A DNA stretch of 64,000 bases. Source: an uncultured Thermodesulfobacterium sp. GTDB taxonomy: Bacteria; Desulfobacterota; Thermodesulfobacteria; Thermodesulfobacteriales; Thermodesulfobacteriaceae. The notes beneath the pieces were generated by a model. That model was not told where the DNA came from, searched no databases, and saw nothing but the letters and a program-made list of their open reading frames with translations. The position numbers and the translations under genes are program-made. The stretch's first letter is position 1, and the number at the start of each line of letters is the position of its first letter. This document shows, piece by piece, positions 1 to 31,506 of this stretch. The stretch is taken from positions 1 to 64,000 of the forward strand of contig CALLJG010000005.1 in assembly GCA_938091335.1 (NCBI GenBank), written 5' to 3'.

Positions 1-144
1 AATAGTTGTTGTTTCCTTAGCATCCTTAATCTTAAGCTCTTTTGCATAAGCTTTAATTGAGTCTAAATTAATCCCAATAGAACTTAAAACTAAAGACCCT
101 ATAGATAACTTCAAAAAATCTCTTCTACTTAATTTTCTTAATAT
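1..144 (-). CDS. fdhA: Formate dehydrogenase alpha subunit, N-terminal part (runs off the window)
   Basis: Only the first 48 codons are visible. They contain a twin-arginine motif (SRRDFLKLS) followed by a hydrophobic stretch, then a segment ending KETTTI. In the molybdenum/tungsten formate dehydrogenases of the FdnG type this leads into the first 4Fe-4S motif (CPYCxVGC), which lies outside the window. The product would be exported by Tat and oxidise formate in the periplasm. A strong Shine-Dalgarno GGAGGT (151-156) sits 6 bases before an in-frame AUA at 144-142. No ATG, GTG or TTG is in frame near it, so the start is non-canonical or the gene is damaged. It follows a pseudogene of an electron-transfer subunit on the same strand. 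The family call rests on the leader and the KETTTI context alone. Confidence 0.6.
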   Translation of the reverse strand, partial: MLRKLSRRDFLKLSIGSLVLSSIGINLDSIKAYAKELKIKDAKETTTI

Positions 145-168: not shown

Positions 169-1375
169 CTATAGTTTATGGATAATATCATGAATACCTA
201 CATGACAATTATGACAAGGTGTAATTACTATTTTTGCGCCAGTGTCTTTTATTTGGTTAGCTTTAATTTTATTATTTTGAACTCTTAACTTTTTCCAAGG
301 AGGACCTGCAGCAATTCCCCTCCCCTGCATTACAACAATATATCTAAATTTTTCTGCAGCTCCTGCCCTTCTTATAATATTACAGGGATCTTGCAAAGTA
401 ACAGGTTCTTTTATTTTTCTTTTTATTTTTAATTTCCCATTTTTTATTAATTCATGATAAAATTCTGTAGCATGTAAAATTTCAAAAGGTAATTCTTTAT
501 AACCAAGTAAAGGCGGAGCTATTTTGCATAAAGCAAAAGTAGCATGCCCACACTCAGTAACTATTATTCTTTTTGCCCTTAATTTAATTGCCTCCTCAAA
601 AACCTCCCTTACAATTCGTTGCATAGTAAAATAATCTTGAACAAACATAGCCATATTAGCATAATCTTTTAAAGAGTAACTCCAACTAACATTGCCATAA
701 TACATTATTTTACCAATGATTTGTATATATTGAGGAGCTCTTGCAGGTTCAGTTCCTAAGGTTACAAATAAAAAATCTACTCCTTCTTTATTAAAAGGTG
801 TTTTAAAATTCTCTATTTCAGAAGAGGTTTCTTCTTCCATCCACTGAAGGGCATCTATCCAATCAGCCTGAGAAATCCAAAGCTAAGTTAATGTAGCACT
901 CAAACTATATACATAATCCAATAAAATATAAGGAACAATACCAAGCAAAAAGCAAATTCTTCTTACTTGCCCTATTAAAAAAGCAATATCTAATCCAAAG
1001 GGACAATATAAACTACAACGATGACACATATTACATTCTGTAAAAAACAATGCGAGCACATTGTCTTATAAATTCTCTATCTACTTTTCCTTTTCTTTTT
1101 AACATTTCCCAAATGGTCATTTTTACTTTACTAACAGGAGAATAAGTTGGGTCTCTATCATTAGATAAATACCACTGACAAGCCTCAGCACAAAGGCCAC
1201 AATGTATACAAGTTTCTACAATGGCTTTAATTCTTCCTGATTTACGCCCTAATACTTCATTTATAGTTTTTTCTATCTTTTCCAAAGAAAGTAGATTTAT
1301 TTTTTCATCTATTCCAGGATCTTGCACTAAATCTCTTATATACTCAGGAAAATATTGGCTCATATATTTTTTCAT
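169..1375 (-). pseudogene. Decayed HmcF/HdrD-like iron-sulfur subunit (paralogue of the gene at 28132-29553)
   Basis: Conceptual translation matches the intact gene at 28132-29553 nearly end to end. It keeps a good ribosome site (AAGGAG before ATG 1375), the first ferredoxin motif (CIHCGLCAEAC), the TECGH motif (Cys codon 552-550) and the terminal PCHNC. It is broken in at least four ways. One extra base in an A run at 1042-1047 shifts the frame just before the second ferredoxin motif. An in-frame TAG lies at 883-885. About 57 bases plus an indel are lost near 335-350, removing the first Cys of the CCNAGGG motif. The C-terminus stops about 30 residues early. It lies directly upstream of fdhA and may once have coupled formate oxidation to the cytoplasm. 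The region around 300 (GGGIAAGPPWKK) differs from the intact copy, so this is an old paralogue, not a recent duplicate. Confidence 0.85.
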
Positions 1376-23906: not shown

Positions 23907-24018
23907 GAAAAGATTTATTTTAAACTACTTAAAAAATAGTCCTTGGTATCTTTGGGTTTTAAGAATTTCCGGAGCTGTGCTTATAACCTATATTATAATA
24001 AAAGCTCTTAAAATTTAA
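23899..24018 (+). CDS. 39-residue putative membrane peptide
   Basis: A short frame starting ATG at 23899 inside the hpt 3' end (8-base overlap, a common coupling geometry) and ending at TAA 24016-24018. It has a basic N-terminus (MSKKRF), a WYLWVLRISG segment and one hydrophobic stretch (about residues 20-35) ending in lysines, so it would be a single-span peptide. Its stop overlaps the end of the convergent hmcC gene by 4 bases. No homologue is recognised; the placement and clean membrane profile are the only support. Confidence 0.45.
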   Translation: MSKKRFILNYLKNSPWYLWVLRISGAVLITYIIIKALKI

Positions 24019-25229
24019 TGTTCAGATTTATATTTAGGATGTTCATAAAGAACAGGCATCCTGTTAAGAACAAATCTATAAACAAGAACTAACATAGTAA
24101 TTACTCCAGCACTAAGTGCTATTTCAGTCCAAGCAGGATAATATTTTTGAGAAAAAGGTATATACCATTTATAAGCAAGTAAACATATATTTAACCGATT
24201 CACAATAACTCCAAAAGCAGTCAAAAGGGCTCCTAATTTTACAAGCCATACCTTGTTTTGCCTAAAAGCTGAAGTAAAAATAAGAGCAGGAACAAGTACA
24301 AATCCAATTAATTCAAAAAGATACCACCACCCATAAAAACCTTTTAAATAATGCCACTTTTCATAATGGGCAAAATCAAGAAGTTTTAAAATCAAATAAA
24401 TATAAAGAGCACAAGCTGTAGCCTTACCTAAACCAATCAATTTTTTATCAAACTCTTGAGGATCAAAATCTTTTATTTGATATCTAAAAGCTTTATGAGT
24501 AATGGTTGCTTCTAAAATTACTATAGAAATACCTCCAAAAATAGCCGAAATAAGGAAAAAAGGTGGAAGCAACACTGAATACCAAAGCATATGAAGTTTA
24601 GAAGGTACAACTACATATAATCCTCCTAATGCTGCCTGATGACCACCAGCAATGATTACTCCAAAAATAGTAGCCCAGATTACAAGTTTAGCAAAAAATT
24701 CACGAGCCTTCTTTAAATCTAACCATTCAAAAAACACAGGAGCAAATTCTATCATACAAATAATAATATAAAGAAAAAAGTGCCAACCTACTAAAAATAG
24801 AATAGAGGAAAAACCCCAAGACCATATCAATAAATTATATAAATTATAATATCTTCCTAAGTCAAACAAAAGAGCAAATACAGCAAAAATGTATCCAAGA
24901 AGACTTGATAAAGCAACAGATCTTGCAAAATGATGGTATTCCTTAATTCCAAACAAGTGAATTGCAGTTCCAACTGTAAGCCCAGGTGCTGCTAAAGCAA
25001 TACCTACTAAAATATCAAATCCAATCCAAAAACCCCATGGATATTCATCAGAAAGGTTTGTGGAAGGACCTAATCCATAAATAAGTCTATATACCATAGC
25101 ATAAATTCCAAAAACTAGAATAATTAAAGCTATAATATTTCCTATAGTTATATTGTCTCTTATAAATTCATTCCAAGTTCTTCCCATTAAAATTTTTTCT
25201 TTAAACCAGGAATTAGTGCTTTTAGCCAT
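24015..25229 (-). CDS. hmcC: Hmc complex membrane subunit, NrfD/PsrC family
   Basis: A 404-residue integral membrane protein with about ten hydrophobic segments, of the NrfD/HybB/PsrC family that handles menaquinone or proton/electron transfer. Family landmarks are EYPWGFWIGFDILVGIALAAPG (about residues 65-86) and GRYYNLYNLL. It overlaps hmcB by 8 bases. In Desulfovibrio the equivalent HmcC pairs with the ferredoxin-like HmcB. The neighbouring hmcD, hmcA, hmcF and hmcE genes support this rather than a stand-alone polysulfide reductase. Confidence 0.85.
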   Translation of the reverse strand: MAKSTNSWFKEKILMGRTWNEFIRDNITIGNIIALIILVFGIYAMVYRLIYGLGPSTNLSDEYPWGFWIGFDILVGIALAAPGLTVGTAIHLFGIKEYHHFARSVALSSLLGYIFAVFALLFDLGRYYNLYNLLIWSWGFSSILFLVGWHFFLYIIICMIEFAPVFFEWLDLKKAREFFAKLVIWATIFGVIIAGGHQAALGGLYVVVPSKLHMLWYSVLLPPFFLISAIFGGISIVILEATITHKAFRYQIKDFDPQEFDKKLIGLGKATACALYIYLILKLLDFAHYEKWHYLKGFYGWWYLFELIGFVLVPALIFTSAFRQNKVWLVKLGALLTAFGVIVNRLNICLLAYKWYIPFSQKYYPAWTEIALSAGVITMLVLVYRFVLNRMPVLYEHPKYKSEH

Positions 25230-26238
25230 GGCTTTCTCCTTTTACCTCATTTGTAGAATATCTTTTTTTCTTAGCTCTAGAGATTTGATAGTAAGCCCCA
25301 AATACCAAAGGCCAGGCTCCTACTACTTCAAAAAATTTTACCGCAAATAAAAATTTTTCACTATATTCAGGAATAGGAGTCTCTCCTACATTAACAAAAA
25401 ATCCTATCTCTTCAAAAGGAACAGGCGAAATGTAAAGCCAACTTGTTCCCCCTACCTCTTTTTCTCCATATACATGATCCACATATTTTCCAGGATTTTG
25501 AGTTATCCTTTCATGAGATATTTTTAAGAGCTCACTTCTTTTACCAAAAAGTAAAGCACCTCCAGTACAAATTTCTACACAAGCAGGGACTTTACCTTCA
25601 ACTATTCTATCATAGCACATAGTACATTTTGTCACCTGAGGAGTAATAGGATCATAATATTCATAAGCAGGGATATCAAAAGGACATGCTAACATACAGT
25701 ATCTACATCCTACACATACACTGGGATTATAAATAACAGGACCTTCTGAAGTCTTTCTATAAGCCTCAACTAAACATACAGAATAACATGCTGGATGTAT
25801 ACAATGCATACATTGTTTTTTTACATAAACAGGAGTCCCATCTTTCGAATAAAATCTATTTACTACTGTAAAATTCCCAGCATGCGGTCTCCTTACTTTA
25901 TCAAAAACTGAAGGTTTTTGATGAACTGAAGCCTCAAACTCTTTTAAAGGTCTGTTAGGATTTTGATTCCATTCATTACATGCCCATTCACATCTTCTAC
26001 ATCCTATACATTTTGAAATATCAACTAATACCCCATAGGGTTCTTCCGCAGCTGGTAGACGTTTTTTCTTTCTTTCTTCATAAATTTTCCAATTTTTTGC
26101 ATTCGCTTTATTACCGGTTGTATAAATAGAAGGGGCCTCTCCTTTACTATAAGCTAAAGAAATTGTAGGTTTAGTAATTATTAAACTTCCAATTAATGCA
26201 CCTGCTCCCTTTAAAAAATTTCTTCTACTCAACTTCAT
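25222..26238 (-). CDS. hmcB: Hmc complex ferredoxin-like subunit with Tat signal
   Basis: A 338-residue periplasmic iron-sulfur subunit. It begins with a twin-arginine signal (KLSRRNFLKGAGALIG), then four Cys clusters typical of a four-cluster DMSO-reductase-type ferredoxin: CIGCRRCEWAC, CMHCIHPACYSVC, CVGCRYCMLACPF and CTMCYDRI...PACVEIC. A hydrophobic segment near the C-terminus (AVKFFEVVGAWPLVFGAYY) would anchor it to the membrane, as in HmcB of Desulfovibrio. It passes electrons between the 16-haem cytochrome and the NrfD subunit encoded next to it. Confidence 0.88.
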   Translation of the reverse strand: MKLSRRNFLKGAGALIGSLIITKPTISLAYSKGEAPSIYTTGNKANAKNWKIYEERKKKRLPAAEEPYGVLVDISKCIGCRRCEWACNEWNQNPNRPLKEFEASVHQKPSVFDKVRRPHAGNFTVVNRFYSKDGTPVYVKKQCMHCIHPACYSVCLVEAYRKTSEGPVIYNPSVCVGCRYCMLACPFDIPAYEYYDPITPQVTKCTMCYDRIVEGKVPACVEICTGGALLFGKRSELLKISHERITQNPGKYVDHVYGEKEVGGTSWLYISPVPFEEIGFFVNVGETPIPEYSEKFLFAVKFFEVVGAWPLVFGAYYQISRAKKKRYSTNEVKGESHG

Positions 26239-26383: not shown

Positions 26384-28120
26384 CTATCTTTTTATTCCAA
26401 GTATATCCCTTGGAATAGGTCTTGGTTCTTTTTCTTTATGACAATCAGTACATCTATGTGTAGGCTTCTCAAGTCTCATATTATCATGACAACTAATACA
26501 TTGGATATGATATGCAGATTGTAATTTCAGTTTATTGGGATTAACAGGATTAAAATATCTTGGATGACAATTCTGACAAGAAGGAGGAGTATCTTTTTTA
26601 GCTTCAGCAGGAGATTTTCTCTGATGATGACACCCTTCACAAAGCATACTTATTTCGTTATGAAAATATCTTCCTAACTTGCTTTCATTAGAAATGCTTA
26701 CTAATTTATCTATAATCTTACGATGAGGAAAACCTGCAGGTTCAAATTCTTTTTCTAATACTTTTATTTTAATATCTTTTTTAACTATATTAGGATCAAG
26801 TACAGCTGTAGAAAGGGGAGGAGGTAACACAACTTCCTTTTTACCAGTATGACATCTATCACAAATTTCTTTCTTAGGCTCTTTTGCCTTAATATCTAAT
26901 AATGGAATAAATTTATGACATCCTGCACAGTTTTTGTCTAATTTCTTTTTATTATGACATCCTGCACAACTATGATCTGAGAAAACAGCATGATAAGCAT
27001 CAACTACATTAACCCAACCTCCCTCAGCAATACCTTCTAATTTATGACACTCTTTACAAGCCTTTAGTCTTTCATGATGACAAACTCTACAATTATTATG
27101 ATAATACTCATGATTTTTATGACTAAAACCTACACCTTTCATTTTTGCATTTTCTCCTACACTTATAAATAAAGTTTCCTTTTGTTTCCTATCAGGACGA
27201 GGTATTTTTTCAAGCTCCTCTATACTTCTATACTTGCCTGTATGACATTTCCCACACTCTAAAGGAGGAAGTTTTTCTCCTTCTTTTTTGGTAACCTCCA
27301 TTTCTTTATTAATTTTTATATGACAACTAAGACATCTTTGATGAGCAGTCTTTTGGTAAGTTAGTCTTTTTTCTGAAGATATTTTAATTATCTGAGAAAG
27401 TTCAGGACCTCTTTTTTTCTTACTAATGTCATGACAATAATAACAAGACTCCTCAGTTTCATTTTGATAAATCAATTTTTTCTCTTTCAAATCATAAATA
27501 TGATGACAAAGACCACAATCTTTTTCTCCTATCCTTTCTTTAAGCTTCGTTTCATGATCATAATGAAGCTTAAAATCAAACTCTACACGAGGATACTTTA
27601 TTTTAACAAATTCTTTTTCTTTAACATGGCAATCACCACATGTAATAGGACCTGATTTTTTCTTTTCCTTTAATTTCTGTTTATGACAACCTATACATTC
27701 ATCATGATAAGCTTTTTTCATAGCTTCTTTGTCTAATTTCACTACCCTTTTAGGAAATTCAAAAACTAAAACATCTCTTATTTCTGATTTCTTTTCTTTT
27801 ATTAGTTCATCTTCTTTTTTGATTCTTATTAATTCCTCTTTTTTTGGTCTGTGACAAACATCACAAGTTTCCCATTCTTTTTTCCCTTCTTTCTTAATCG
27901 CTTCCACATGTTTTTTATGATCAAAAATAACTTGAGGTCTTTCTAAAGGACCAAATATTTCAGTATGCGCTATGGCAATTTTTTCTTCAGGTTCAGTGAT
28001 AAGTATTTCCTTAGAAGGAGGTATTGCAGGAGCTGTATAAACTTTATTTATTCCATAAATTATTAAAATTACGTAAACCAGAAGCCCTAAAATTACTAAA
28101 ATTATGGTTTCTCTTCTCAT
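26384..28120 (-). CDS. hmcA: 16-haem high-molecular-weight cytochrome c
   Basis: A 578-residue protein with an N-terminal hydrophobic signal or anchor (about residues 5-28) and sixteen CxxCH haem-binding motifs, counted from CDVCH near residue 87 to CTDCH near residue 560, plus numerous free His as sixth ligands. Sixteen haems match HmcA of Desulfovibrio exactly. The protein is Lys/Glu-rich, fitting a thermophile. It would accept electrons from periplasmic hydrogenase or formate dehydrogenase (by way of cytochrome c3) and hand them to the membrane subunits. It follows hmcF by 11 bases. Confidence 0.92.
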   Translation of the reverse strand: MRRETIILVILGLLVYVILIIYGINKVYTAPAIPPSKEILITEPEEKIAIAHTEIFGPLERPQVIFDHKKHVEAIKKEGKKEWETCDVCHRPKKEELIRIKKEDELIKEKKSEIRDVLVFEFPKRVVKLDKEAMKKAYHDECIGCHKQKLKEKKKSGPITCGDCHVKEKEFVKIKYPRVEFDFKLHYDHETKLKERIGEKDCGLCHHIYDLKEKKLIYQNETEESCYYCHDISKKKRGPELSQIIKISSEKRLTYQKTAHQRCLSCHIKINKEMEVTKKEGEKLPPLECGKCHTGKYRSIEELEKIPRPDRKQKETLFISVGENAKMKGVGFSHKNHEYYHNNCRVCHHERLKACKECHKLEGIAEGGWVNVVDAYHAVFSDHSCAGCHNKKKLDKNCAGCHKFIPLLDIKAKEPKKEICDRCHTGKKEVVLPPPLSTAVLDPNIVKKDIKIKVLEKEFEPAGFPHRKIIDKLVSISNESKLGRYFHNEISMLCEGCHHQRKSPAEAKKDTPPSCQNCHPRYFNPVNPNKLKLQSAYHIQCISCHDNMRLEKPTHRCTDCHKEKEPRPIPRDILGIKR

Positions 28121-28131
28121 ACTATACTCCT

Positions 28132-29553
28132 TTATCCTTCTTCAGGTAATAGTTCTTCTGGAATATGCATAGTATTAACTAACAACTCATCCAAAAACAT
28201 AAGTTTTACAGGGAATTTCCAGTAGCCTATAATATCTTTAAGTCCTGTATTGCAATTATGACAAGGTGTAATTACTATTTTTGCTCCTGTTGCCATAATT
28301 TGTTCCACTTTAACCCTATTTCCCCTTGCTTTATGAGAAAGCCATTGAGCTAATACCGCAAGCCCTCCCCCTGCATTACAACAAAAATTATGTTCCCTAT
28401 TAGGATACATCTCTATAAAATTTTCACAGGTTTGTCTTACAATATATCTAAATTTTTCTGCAGCTCCTGCCCTTCTTATAATATTACAGGGATCTTGCAA
28501 AGTAACAGGTTCTTTTATTTTTTTCGCAGGATCTATTTTAAGTCTCCCACTTACTAAAAGTTCGTAATAAAATTCTCCTGGATGCATAATCTCAAAAGGT
28601 AATTCCTTATATCCTAACATTTGTGGCGCCACAAAACTTGTGGCAAATCTTGGATGCCCTCACTCAGTTAAAACTAATTTTTTAGCTCTAAATTTTGCTG
28701 CATTCTCATAAAGACCCTTTACAATTCTTTGCATAGTAAAAAAATCTCTAGTAAACATAGGCATATTACTACTATCCCATGCATCATTTATAGTCACCAT
28801 TGCCCAATTCACACCAGCTACTTGAAATATCTTTGCAATACGATCTATATGATATACTCCAGCTTTTGGTTCTGCTGCTAAAGGATACCATATAACTTCT
28901 ACTCCCTCTTTATTTAAAGGTACTCTTAAATTCTTTAATTCATACATCCCCTCTTCTTCTCTCCACATAAGTGTATCAATATAATCACTTTGAGAAATCC
29001 AAACCTGATTTAAAGTAGCCATAAATGCTTGATTCATTTCAAACATTCTCTGTGGTACAACTCCCAAAAGAAAACAAAATCTTCTCACCAGTCCAATAAT
29101 AAAAGTAATATCTAATCCAAAAGGACAATATAAACTACAACGATGACATATATTACATTCTGTAAAAACTACCCGAGCAATATGATACACTAATCCAGGC
29201 TCTACTTTACCTTTTCTTTTTATTAATTCCCAAGCACTCATTTTTACTTTAGCAACTGGAGAATAAGTTGGGTCTCTATCATTAGATAAATACCACTGAC
29301 AAGCCTCGGCACAAAGTCCACAATGAATACATGTCTCTATAATAGCTTTAATTCTTGCAGTTTCTTTTCCAAAAACTGCTTGATAAGCTTTCTCTATCTT
29401 TTCAGGAGTCAACCTTTTTATGGTTTCGTCAAGACCTGGATCTTCTATTTTTGGTCTTACATATTCCGGAAAATAGGGACTTATATATACTTCTTTTTCT
29501 TCTAAAACCTGAGGTTTAACTGCCATATTTTTATCCCCCCTTATTTTTACCAA
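28132..29553 (-). CDS. hmcF: Hmc/Tmc complex cytoplasmic HdrD-like subunit, predicted selenoprotein (UGA = Sec)
   Basis: One 473-residue frame interrupted only by TGA at 28662-28660. Upstream are two ferredoxin motifs (CIHCGLCAEAC near residue 74 and CNICHRCSLYC near residue 131); downstream is a non-cubane cluster motif of the CCG type, C-x34-CC-x38-CxxC (DPCN, CCNAGGG, PCHNC), as in HdrD, DsrK and TmcB. The TGA falls in the motif TE-x-GH, which is TECGH in the decayed paralogue at 169-1375. Sequence before and after is in the same frame and equally conserved, so read-through with selenocysteine is far more likely than a split gene. The 5' end overlaps hmcE by 7 bases. It would reduce a cytoplasmic acceptor or thiol/disulfide using electrons from the membrane part. 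Confidence 0.85.
28628..28645 (-). promoter_or_regulatory. Bacterial SECIS-like hairpin just after the hmcF UGA
   Basis: In the mRNA, UGA is followed after 15 bases by GCCACAAGTTTTGTGGC (28644-28628), a perfect 7-bp stem with loop GUU, extendable by a U-G pair (28645 with 28627). The loop G lies 23 bases after the UGA, close to the place of the SelB-recognised loop in E. coli fdhF mRNA. A second overlapping palindrome (TTTGTGGCGCCACAAA) could compete. This is a by-eye fold; SelB binding is inference. Confidence 0.65.
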
Positions 29554-30218
29554 TCTTTAGTTTTCCATGAAGCTGCTTGAGAAGCCATCCAAGCTCTTGT
29601 AAAGAAAAAGTAATACATATGAGTAAGTCTTGTAAAAGGAATAGCAATAAGCATTATCTCCCCAAATAATATATGAAGATTTAACATAGCTTTATATGGT
29701 AATACCCATTGATAATGAGCTAAAAATCCTGTTAAAAAAGTAAAAAGACAGATAAAAACAAAAATAAAATCAGCATAATTTGTAACAAATCTAACAGTAG
29801 GATCAAATATCCTTCTTCCAATAAAAAAAATACAACCAATTATTACAAAAATTGTCCAAACATCTGCTACTATTTCAGGCAAAGTCCACCAAGAAATTCC
29901 CCAAGATTCATACCATAAAGCATTATGAGCATAAAGAAAAATAGGAACAAAAATCAAACCTGTATGAAAAAGAAAAGTAAAAATAGTAAAATAAGGCTTT
30001 AATCTCCAATTTCTGGAAGCAAAAGGAATAAGCCAATGAAGATAGGATTTTATAGCAGCTTTTATATTAATAAATGGTAAAACTACTTTTTCTTTCTTTG
30101 CTAAATTTATTAAAGTATAAATTCTATATATGCTTCCAAATATAAAAATTATAAAAGCCAACCATACCATAGGACCTCTTAAAAAGCTATATAGAGCAAC
30201 ACTTTCTAAAAAACCCAT
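29547..30218 (-). CDS. hmcE: Hmc/Tmc complex cytochrome b-like membrane subunit
   Basis: A 223-residue protein with five or six hydrophobic segments and several His residues inside or next to them (FLFHTG, YAHNALW, AHYQW, NLHILFGE and LTHMYYFF), as expected for a NarI-type dihaem cytochrome b. It corresponds to HmcE of Hmc and TmcC of Tmc complexes. The gene overlaps hmcF by 7 bases. It would connect the periplasmic cytochrome and the quinone pool to the cytoplasmic HdrD-like subunit. Confidence 0.82.
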   Translation of the reverse strand: MGFLESVALYSFLRGPMVWLAFIIFIFGSIYRIYTLINLAKKEKVVLPFINIKAAIKSYLHWLIPFASRNWRLKPYFTIFTFLFHTGLIFVPIFLYAHNALWYESWGISWWTLPEIVADVWTIFVIIGCIFFIGRRIFDPTVRFVTNYADFIFVFICLFTFLTGFLAHYQWVLPYKAMLNLHILFGEIMLIAIPFTRLTHMYYFFFTRAWMASQAASWKTKDW

Positions 30219-30231
30219 AAGCTATCCCTCT

Positions 30232-31506
30232 TTATTTTATAATTTCATCAACAGAAAGTATTTTTCTAAAATATTTTCCTTCTTTTATACCTCTTATAAG
30301 AATTTTTAAACCATCTGGACTGAATTGAGGATCCCACAACCAATCATAAGCTTCTTTATTCAATTTTCCATCTATCACTACATAGTAGTTTCCATCTTTT
30401 TCAGCTCTTACTGCAACTTTATCACCTGTAGGAGAAAATACAGGATCCCATACATTATCAAATGTTTCAGCCCAAGGAACTCCATCCACTGCTACAGTCC
30501 ATTTATTATTATTCTTTACTACTACTGCTATTTTTTTACTATCTGGACTAAAAACCGGATCTAAAACCATTTGATTAAACGTAATACCCCAGGGAACTCC
30601 ATCCACTGCTACAGTCCATTTCCCAGAAGCCAATGCTACAACTGCTGCTAATTTTTTGCCATCTGGACTAAATTTTTGTTTCCATACTTGCATAAAATAT
30701 GGCCATATAGGGTCTTCATTTTTAGCAAGAGTCCAGCCTTGGGGAGTAAGAACAGGTGCAATTACATCAGAGCTTTTAGGAACAAATATAGGTTCCCAAC
30801 ATCCTCCAAATTCCTTACCCCAAGGCTTACCATCTACTGCTATAGTATATTTAGAAAGATCAGTCATTATACAAGCTGCTACATGATTTCCATCATCACT
30901 GAAAATACCACCATATACACTCATAAAAGAATTATCCCAAGGCTTACCATCTACTGCTATAGTATAGTTTTTTTCATAAAACCAAAAAATATCTAATTCT
31001 CTTCTTGGATTTATTTGAACCCTTGAAGCAGTCCTTTGTCCGTCAGGACTAATAATAACATCTCTTACTTCAATAAAAGTTTCTTCCCAAGGATTATCAT
31101 TTAAACATACTCCTTGAGTCATTTCAGGTGTCCTAAAATTAACCGCTATACTTTTAGTATCAGGACTTAAAGTTAAATTCCACATCATATCAAAAGTATT
31201 TTCCCACCTGGTCTCACATTTATCTCCTATAATTACTGTCCACTGATAATCACTATATCCAAGACAAATAGGTTCATTTTCTAAATTAAACTTAAGTGAA
31301 TACATTCTGTCAAAAAGATCTTCACAGGTTTCTCCATTTACACATAAAGTAAATTTGCGAGTTTCAGGTTGTACAATAGCTGCTATCTTTTCTCCATCAG
31401 GTGATGGAGTAAGTTCTCTAATATCAATGTATTTACTTTCCCATTCCTTAATATCTGCTATTATTTTATTTTTGGTTTCCCAATCCCAACCCTCCTTTTG
31501 ATTCAT
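30232..31506 (-). CDS. tmcD: Tryptophan-rich TmcD-like propeller-repeat protein
   Basis: A 424-residue protein with no signal peptide, built from repeats of about 39 residues that contain SPDGKKLAAVV and KWTVAVDGVPW-type blocks. Tryptophans are very frequent. The repeats look like WD40/PD40-type beta-propeller blades. TmcD of the Desulfovibrio Tmc complex is a Trp-rich cytoplasmic protein next to TmcC, and this gene lies 13 bases before the cytochrome b gene. The name is therefore given on repeat type plus context, not on close sequence recognition. It is the first gene of the complex operon and has a good GGGAGG ribosome site. Confidence 0.65.
   Translation of the reverse strand: MNQKEGWDWETKNKIIADIKEWESKYIDIRELTPSPDGEKIAAIVQPETRKFTLCVNGETCEDLFDRMYSLKFNLENEPICLGYSDYQWTVIIGDKCETRWENTFDMMWNLTLSPDTKSIAVNFRTPEMTQGVCLNDNPWEETFIEVRDVIISPDGQRTASRVQINPRRELDIFWFYEKNYTIAVDGKPWDNSFMSVYGGIFSDDGNHVAACIMTDLSKYTIAVDGKPWGKEFGGCWEPIFVPKSSDVIAPVLTPQGWTLAKNEDPIWPYFMQVWKQKFSPDGKKLAAVVALASGKWTVAVDGVPWGITFNQMVLDPVFSPDSKKIAVVVKNNNKWTVAVDGVPWAETFDNVWDPVFSPTGDKVAVRAEKDGNYYVVIDGKLNKEAYDWLWDPQFSPDGLKILIRGIKEGKYFRKILSVDEIIK
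30476..30965 (-). repeat. 117-base (39-codon) internal repeat within the TmcD-like gene
   Basis: Two identical 29-base stretches (30476-30504 and 30593-30621) and two identical 30-base stretches (30819-30848 and 30936-30965) are each exactly 117 bases apart. The equal offset shows that neighbouring 39-residue repeats were copied or gene-converted recently enough to keep DNA identity. Confidence 0.85.

Follow-up and report, generated by a model that had tools for sequence, protein, structure and literature searches.

Our analysis of a 64,000-nucleotide stretch of DNA from an uncultured Thermodesulfobacterium sp., a thermophilic sulfate reducer (the window), asks whether a single in-frame TGA in a gene for an iron-sulfur subunit ends the protein or encodes selenocysteine (Sec), and what a Sec residue might do at that site. 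The reverse-strand frame from 29553 to 28132 is interrupted only by the TGA at 28662-28660, and it carries Fe-S cysteine motifs both before this codon (C66/C69/C72/C76 and C124/C127/C130/C134) and after it (C347, C382-C383, C422, and C425; numbering from ATG 29526). The TEUGH motif occurs together with Pfam CCG and Fer4 domains. An earlier note, made from the sequence alone, had described this frame, its coordinates, and the motifs on both sides of the UGA accurately, and its proposal of Sec at TE-U-GH was right in substance, with sel genes, a conserved UGA, a bacterial SECIS (bSECIS), and selection in agreement. Its 473-residue product should be shortened, since the ATG at 29526, which is preceded by AAGGGGGG, is probably the start in preference to the TTG at 29553, giving 464 residues with Sec at position 289. 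On the genomic and comparative evidence set out below, we take the UGA to be a Sec codon in a real, intact gene. We hold with high confidence to the overall explanation of a full-length selenoprotein in which UGA is decoded as Sec, forming a TmcB-like cytoplasmic subunit, most likely with a redox-active selenolate. Standard annotation would split such Sec genes into two. Features of the locus are collected in Table 1.

Table 1. Features of the selenoprotein locus and its neighborhood in the window
Feature	Position	Strand	Basis or remarks
Broken Cys (TGT) paralogue of TmcB-like gene	169..1375	-	Frameshift, TAG, deletion
HmcC-like NrfD membrane subunit	24015..25229	-	NF045714, 400 bits, under cut-off of 550; Pfam NrfD
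HmcB-like 4Fe-4S protein, TAT-like signal (weak)	25222..26238	-	NF045715, 349 bits, under cut-off of 420
HmcA hexadecaheme cytochrome	26384..28120	-	NF045713, 491.7 bits, above cut-off; 16 CxxCH counted
TmcB-like (HmcF/DsrK family) Fe-S subunit, 464 aa, Sec289	28132..29526	-	NCBIfam, alignment, AF2 model
Domains of TmcB-like subunit			Two ferredoxin-type clusters and one CCG noncubane-cluster domain
Bacterial SECIS hairpin inside coding sequence	28627..28645	-	8-bp stem; GUU apical loop at 28637-28635; 22 nt from UGA to loop
Sec-coding UGA, motif TE-U-GH	28660..28662	-	UGA at identical codon in ten further homologues, two phyla; Cys codon in others
TmcC membrane anchor (NarI/HmcE-like)	29547..30218	-	NF045723, 247.2 bits, above cut-off
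TmcD (beta-propeller-like)	30232..31506	-	NF045725, 463.5 bits, above cut-off

The ten other homologues with TGA at the identical codon share 60 to 88% identity with this gene and come from Thermodesulfobacterium (three more genomes, one of them closed as one contig) and from Nitrospirota (seven sequences). Within the genus, dN/dS values after the UGA (0.12, 0.09, and 0.21) are similar to those before it (0.07, 0.07, and 0.21), and the downstream part is therefore under equal purifying selection. Across about 90 homologues the residue aligned with Sec289 is only Cys or Sec, so that U aligns with C at E[CU]GH in every homologue, a check that the earlier note had called for; E-[CU]-G-H and the CCG cysteines are invariant in an alignment of 40 sequences. 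A tree of 92 sequences requires at least seven Cys/Sec changes, a count that holds for the present sample, since sampling favored close relatives. The Thermodesulfobacterium and Nitrospirota Sec forms group together on this tree, which suggests that the operon may have been horizontally transferred between them. The genus also has a third Tmc/Hmc operon, distinct from the others (L093, 4236-5612; G013:C8); its TmcB contains Sec, shares 42% identity, and comes with a different SECIS of its own, whereas the nearest relatives of this TmcB in the genus carry Cys. Sec also occurs in a more distant TmcB/HmcF-like branch at 35 to 37% identity (L088, L090, L091, and L092), where the genes adjoin a TmcC-like gene and HmcA-C are absent from the stretch examined.

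The hairpin UGCCACAA-GUU-UUGUGGCG begins about 15 to 16 nt after the UGA. The earlier note's description of 7 bp, a GUU loop, and a start 16 bases downstream was correct as it stood, and an outer U-G pair extends the 7-bp stem (GCCACAA/UUGUGGC) to 8 bp. With 8 bp, GUU, and 22 nt, the hairpin satisfies the published bSECIS model, given in the corresponding part of a 2026 review as a stem of 4 to 16 bp, a loop of 3 to 9 nt with G in the first two loop positions, and a distance of 16 to 37 nt from the UGA (PMC13188914). The single-sequence fold is unremarkable (z = -1.09) and, because this value is nonsignificant, was left out as evidence; the significance we attach to the hairpin rests on conservation and covariation, not on single-sequence stability. 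Where the two phyla share a residue in the SECIS stretch, they use the same codon in 92% of comparisons, compared with 42% elsewhere, and the highest other interval (of 388) reached 77%. Four of the eight stem pairs have changed in a compensatory manner on both sides, slid registers fail, and the covariation score of 0.184 (0.083 when shuffled) was reached in 0 of 500 shuffles. Furthermore, bSECIS-like hairpins scoring 14 or higher were recovered in 18 of 21 Sec genes versus 6 of 72 Cys genes; in a simple scan, two of the 21 showed a weak perfect stem only and one showed none, and bulged folds exist. The divergent Sec relatives L093 and L088 have hairpins of different sequence in the same place (GAGCCUC-UGUUUAU-GAGGCUC and GCGCUUCG-GUU-CGAAGCGC, respectively). 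An Rfam search of the gene returned nothing relevant. One of the six Cys genes that reach this score (L119) has a SECIS-like hairpin 23 nt after its TGC codon, at the position of the hairpin in its Sec sister L117, and this is possibly a SECIS fossil.

These patterns bear on the reading of the UGA as a genuine stop codon or a nonsense change of recent origin, which would leave a pseudogene or a truncated protein of 288 residues. UGA does serve as a normal stop in the window, where it ends 6 of 59 listed open reading frames (ORFs). However, eleven genes from two phyla retain the UGA in question, with synonymous sites saturated, the dN/dS downstream is low, the SECIS codons are frozen, and the SECIS covaries. 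The window also shows what decay of such a gene looks like, in that the paralogue at the contig end has shifted frame near 1040, contains a TAG in frame, and has lost an internal segment at the CCG motif, whereas the Sec gene shows none of these defects. We therefore rejected a nonsense mutation, which we consider very improbable, on the basis of UGA conservation across two phyla and purifying selection downstream.

The codon aligned with Sec in this paralogue is TGT within TECGH, so the earlier note was correct about both the Cys codon and the shared TE-x-GH. Patches of the paralogue are nearly identical to the Sec gene, and its orthologue in the single-contig genome G010 is intact; the near-identical patches suggest either that gene conversion took place or that the contig end was misassembled. 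Next to the paralogue, positions 1 to 144 (reverse strand) encode the N terminus of a TAT-exported protein that ends in AKETTTI, where it is cut by the contig end. We take this TAT-type N terminus to be typical of the periplasmic formate dehydrogenase alpha subunit (FdhA), in line with the formate dehydrogenase start that the earlier note had placed here; the FdhA profile match to this region is weak (22 bits), and the Sec site falls outside the contig.

The source genome (1.39 Mb, 92% complete) encodes the Sec machinery that the earlier note had supposed of the host: profile searches recovered SelA (538 bits), SelB (363 bits), and SelD (337 bits; its gene likewise contains an in-frame TGA, at KASGUAAK), and a tRNA-Sec with anticodon TCA was found at 80 bits. 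SelA is present in 13 of the 14 genomes of the genus. Among five tested Nitrospirota genomes with a UGA homologue, four have a tRNA-Sec at 70 bits or more, and the fifth is a small assembly of 1.7 Mb. We found no support for a reassignment of UGA (to Trp, for example) or for its readthrough by a suppressor, and we rejected this as having next to no chance of being correct, since 214 TGG codons serve for Trp in ORFs of the window, TGA ends normal ORFs, homologues invariably have Cys and never Trp at the aligned position, and the Sec machinery is complete. A single-base sequencing or assembly error might be entertained for a draft of 17 contigs, but its chance is likewise negligible and it was rejected, given independent records with TGA at the same codon in G010, Thermodesulfobacterium geofontis, and Nitrospirota metagenome-assembled genomes (MAGs).

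Which complex does the selenoprotein belong to? The earlier note called it an HmcF/HdrD-like redox subunit. An Fe-S redox subunit it appears to be, but by profile score TmcB is a closer match than HmcF or HdrD: the best family match is TmcB (NF045724; 498.9 bits over 428 positions, below the cut-off of 735), followed by HmcF (NF045711; 346.4 bits, cut-off of 750) and DsrK (NF045796; 163.5 bits, cut-off of 400), likewise below their cut-offs. Of the two complete CCG cysteine sets that would mark an HdrB/HdrD protein, only the C-terminal set (C347, C382, C383, C422, and C425) is complete. TmcC and TmcD adjoin the gene, each above its family cut-off, and the result is a hybrid operon, TmcD-TmcC-TmcB(Sec)-HmcA-HmcB-HmcC, whose order recurs in the Sec clade of both phyla. 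In one Nitrospirota genome (G413; L055, 4289-15379), a TmcD-TmcC-TmcB module with Sec and another with Cys stand in tandem ahead of just one HmcA-HmcB-HmcC set, an arrangement that looks as though a selenium-dependent and a selenium-independent form of the module shared one complex. In another Thermodesulfobacterium genome (G020; L025), HmcA is 81% identical to that in the window while the adjoining TmcB, a Cys form, is only distantly related (46%), and an exchange of the TmcDCB module within the operon therefore seems to have taken place.

An AlphaFold2 model of the TmcB-like protein (pLDDT of 92.3) has its best PDB fold matches in mycobacterial EtfD (9ojn; TM score of 0.68) and then HdrB (5odc; TM score of 0.40), both by query length. 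Searched by sequence against the PDB, the protein by itself matched only EtfD, and a profile search was no better for the CCG part. Sequence alignments place Cys581-Pro-His583-Cys584 of EtfD against U289-G-H291-P. In EtfD, Cys581 holds a linear [3Fe-4S] cluster together with Cys503, Cys538, and Cys584, while His583 ligates the noncubane cluster (PMC13083937). Sec289 and His291 would accordingly sit in the loop that holds the noncubane cluster in EtfD. The counterparts of Cys503, Cys538, and Cys584 are not Cys here, and all five noncubane CCG cysteines are kept. Because the other cysteines of this D1 cluster are absent, Sec289 most probably does not serve as a structural ligand of a cluster, and with the noncubane set complete the simplest view is that its selenolate is free and lies next to the noncubane cluster.

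The main alternative for its function is that Sec289 coordinates the noncubane cluster directly through its selenolate instead of attacking substrate. That the aligned Cys581 is an Fe-S ligand and that His583, equivalent to His291, ligates the noncubane cluster speak for it (PMC13083937). We nevertheless consider it unlikely, since Cys581 binds the other, linear cluster, whose remaining cysteines lack Cys counterparts here, and the noncubane cluster retains its own five. Repeated exchange of Cys and Sec is typical of catalytic thiols, and Sec289 is probably catalytic because evolution has repeatedly swapped Cys and Sec only. A version in which the selenolate ligates the CCG noncubane [4Fe-4S] cluster permanently or transiently, and the tandem Sec/Cys TmcDCB modules of G413 act as a switch, seems to us quite unlikely. 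If true, it would mean a natural selenium-ligated Fe-S cluster in a Tmc/Hmc complex and a selenium-responsive switch for respiratory electron entry.

We lean toward Sec289 as the substrate-attacking residue and propose the following scheme. SelB would read the UGA as Sec, aided by the in-frame SECIS hairpin. Periplasmic HmcA/HmcB and membrane HmcC/TmcC would pass electrons to the cytoplasmic TmcB-like subunit, where two cubane clusters could relay them to the one noncubane CCG cluster. The selenolate of Sec289, next to this cluster, would then attack a disulfide or trisulfide of a partner, for which DsrC is the leading candidate. The genome encodes a DsrC with both C-terminal cysteines (CX10C); TmcB is predicted to reduce DsrC (PMC10553843), and DsrK reduces it (PMC8076601). 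We infer the chemistry, the partner, and the direction of electron flow, as well as, from homology to EtfD, the position beside the cluster; a selenolate there may affect the potential and thiol chemistry of the site, as the earlier note supposed. Since the Cys/Sec residue is invariant in all TmcB, HmcF, and DsrK relatives sampled, it provides a starting point for asking with what the cytoplasmic subunits TmcB/HmcF/DsrK react.

Sec at a UGH motif is already catalogued and is not new at the family level. A "Fe-S oxidoreductase (GlpC)" family with predicted Sec was reported in 2006 from five sequences, according to the portion of that report dealing with it (PMC1794560), and the corresponding entry in the 2026 review equates Fe-S oxidoreductase-like (GlpC) with PTHR43551, with the motif UGH and WP_174406253.1 as an example (PMC13188914). 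By motif and domains the present protein, a CCG-type Fe-S protein in which GH follows the Sec, belongs to this type, and it shares with the family, as described in those portions, occurrence in Thermodesulfobacteriota, Cys homologues, and a bSECIS. Unlike our assignment, the same portions of the two sources name neither TmcB/HmcF nor a Tmc/Hmc complex (PMC1794560, PMC13188914), and we found no link between TmcB/HmcF and selenocysteine in the literature searched, which consisted mostly of papers outside subscription. Two points may be new, namely the placement in a Tmc/Hmc complex and the alignment of Sec and its neighboring His to the noncubane loop of EtfD. They would assign a family of selenoproteins that has long been catalogued, yet lacks a functional explanation, to a sulfate-reducer respiratory complex.

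Compared with known systems, the protein resembles TmcB of the Tmc complex in its best family match and in its flanking TmcC and TmcD but differs in having Sec for Cys, HmcA-HmcB-HmcC downstream, and an operon without TmcA. It resembles HmcF of the Hmc complex in architecture, E[CU]GH, and the presence of HmcA, HmcB, and HmcC in the operon, although the match is weaker. DsrK of DsrMKJOP is homologous, with ECGH kept in all DsrK-like relatives, and a separate Cys relative is encoded at C12:81865 in the genome. Sec-containing HdrD4 and HdrF2 were reported in 2009 from Desulfobacterium autotrophicum and, judged by their published description, are likewise HdrD-like CCG selenoproteins, with HdrF2, unlike the present protein, having fused membrane helices (PMC2702500). 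Finally, each of the two fold matches retains a second cluster, a linear [3Fe-4S] one in mycobacterial EtfD and a noncubane one in HdrB, whereas the first CCG domain here keeps only the Sec/Cys and the His.
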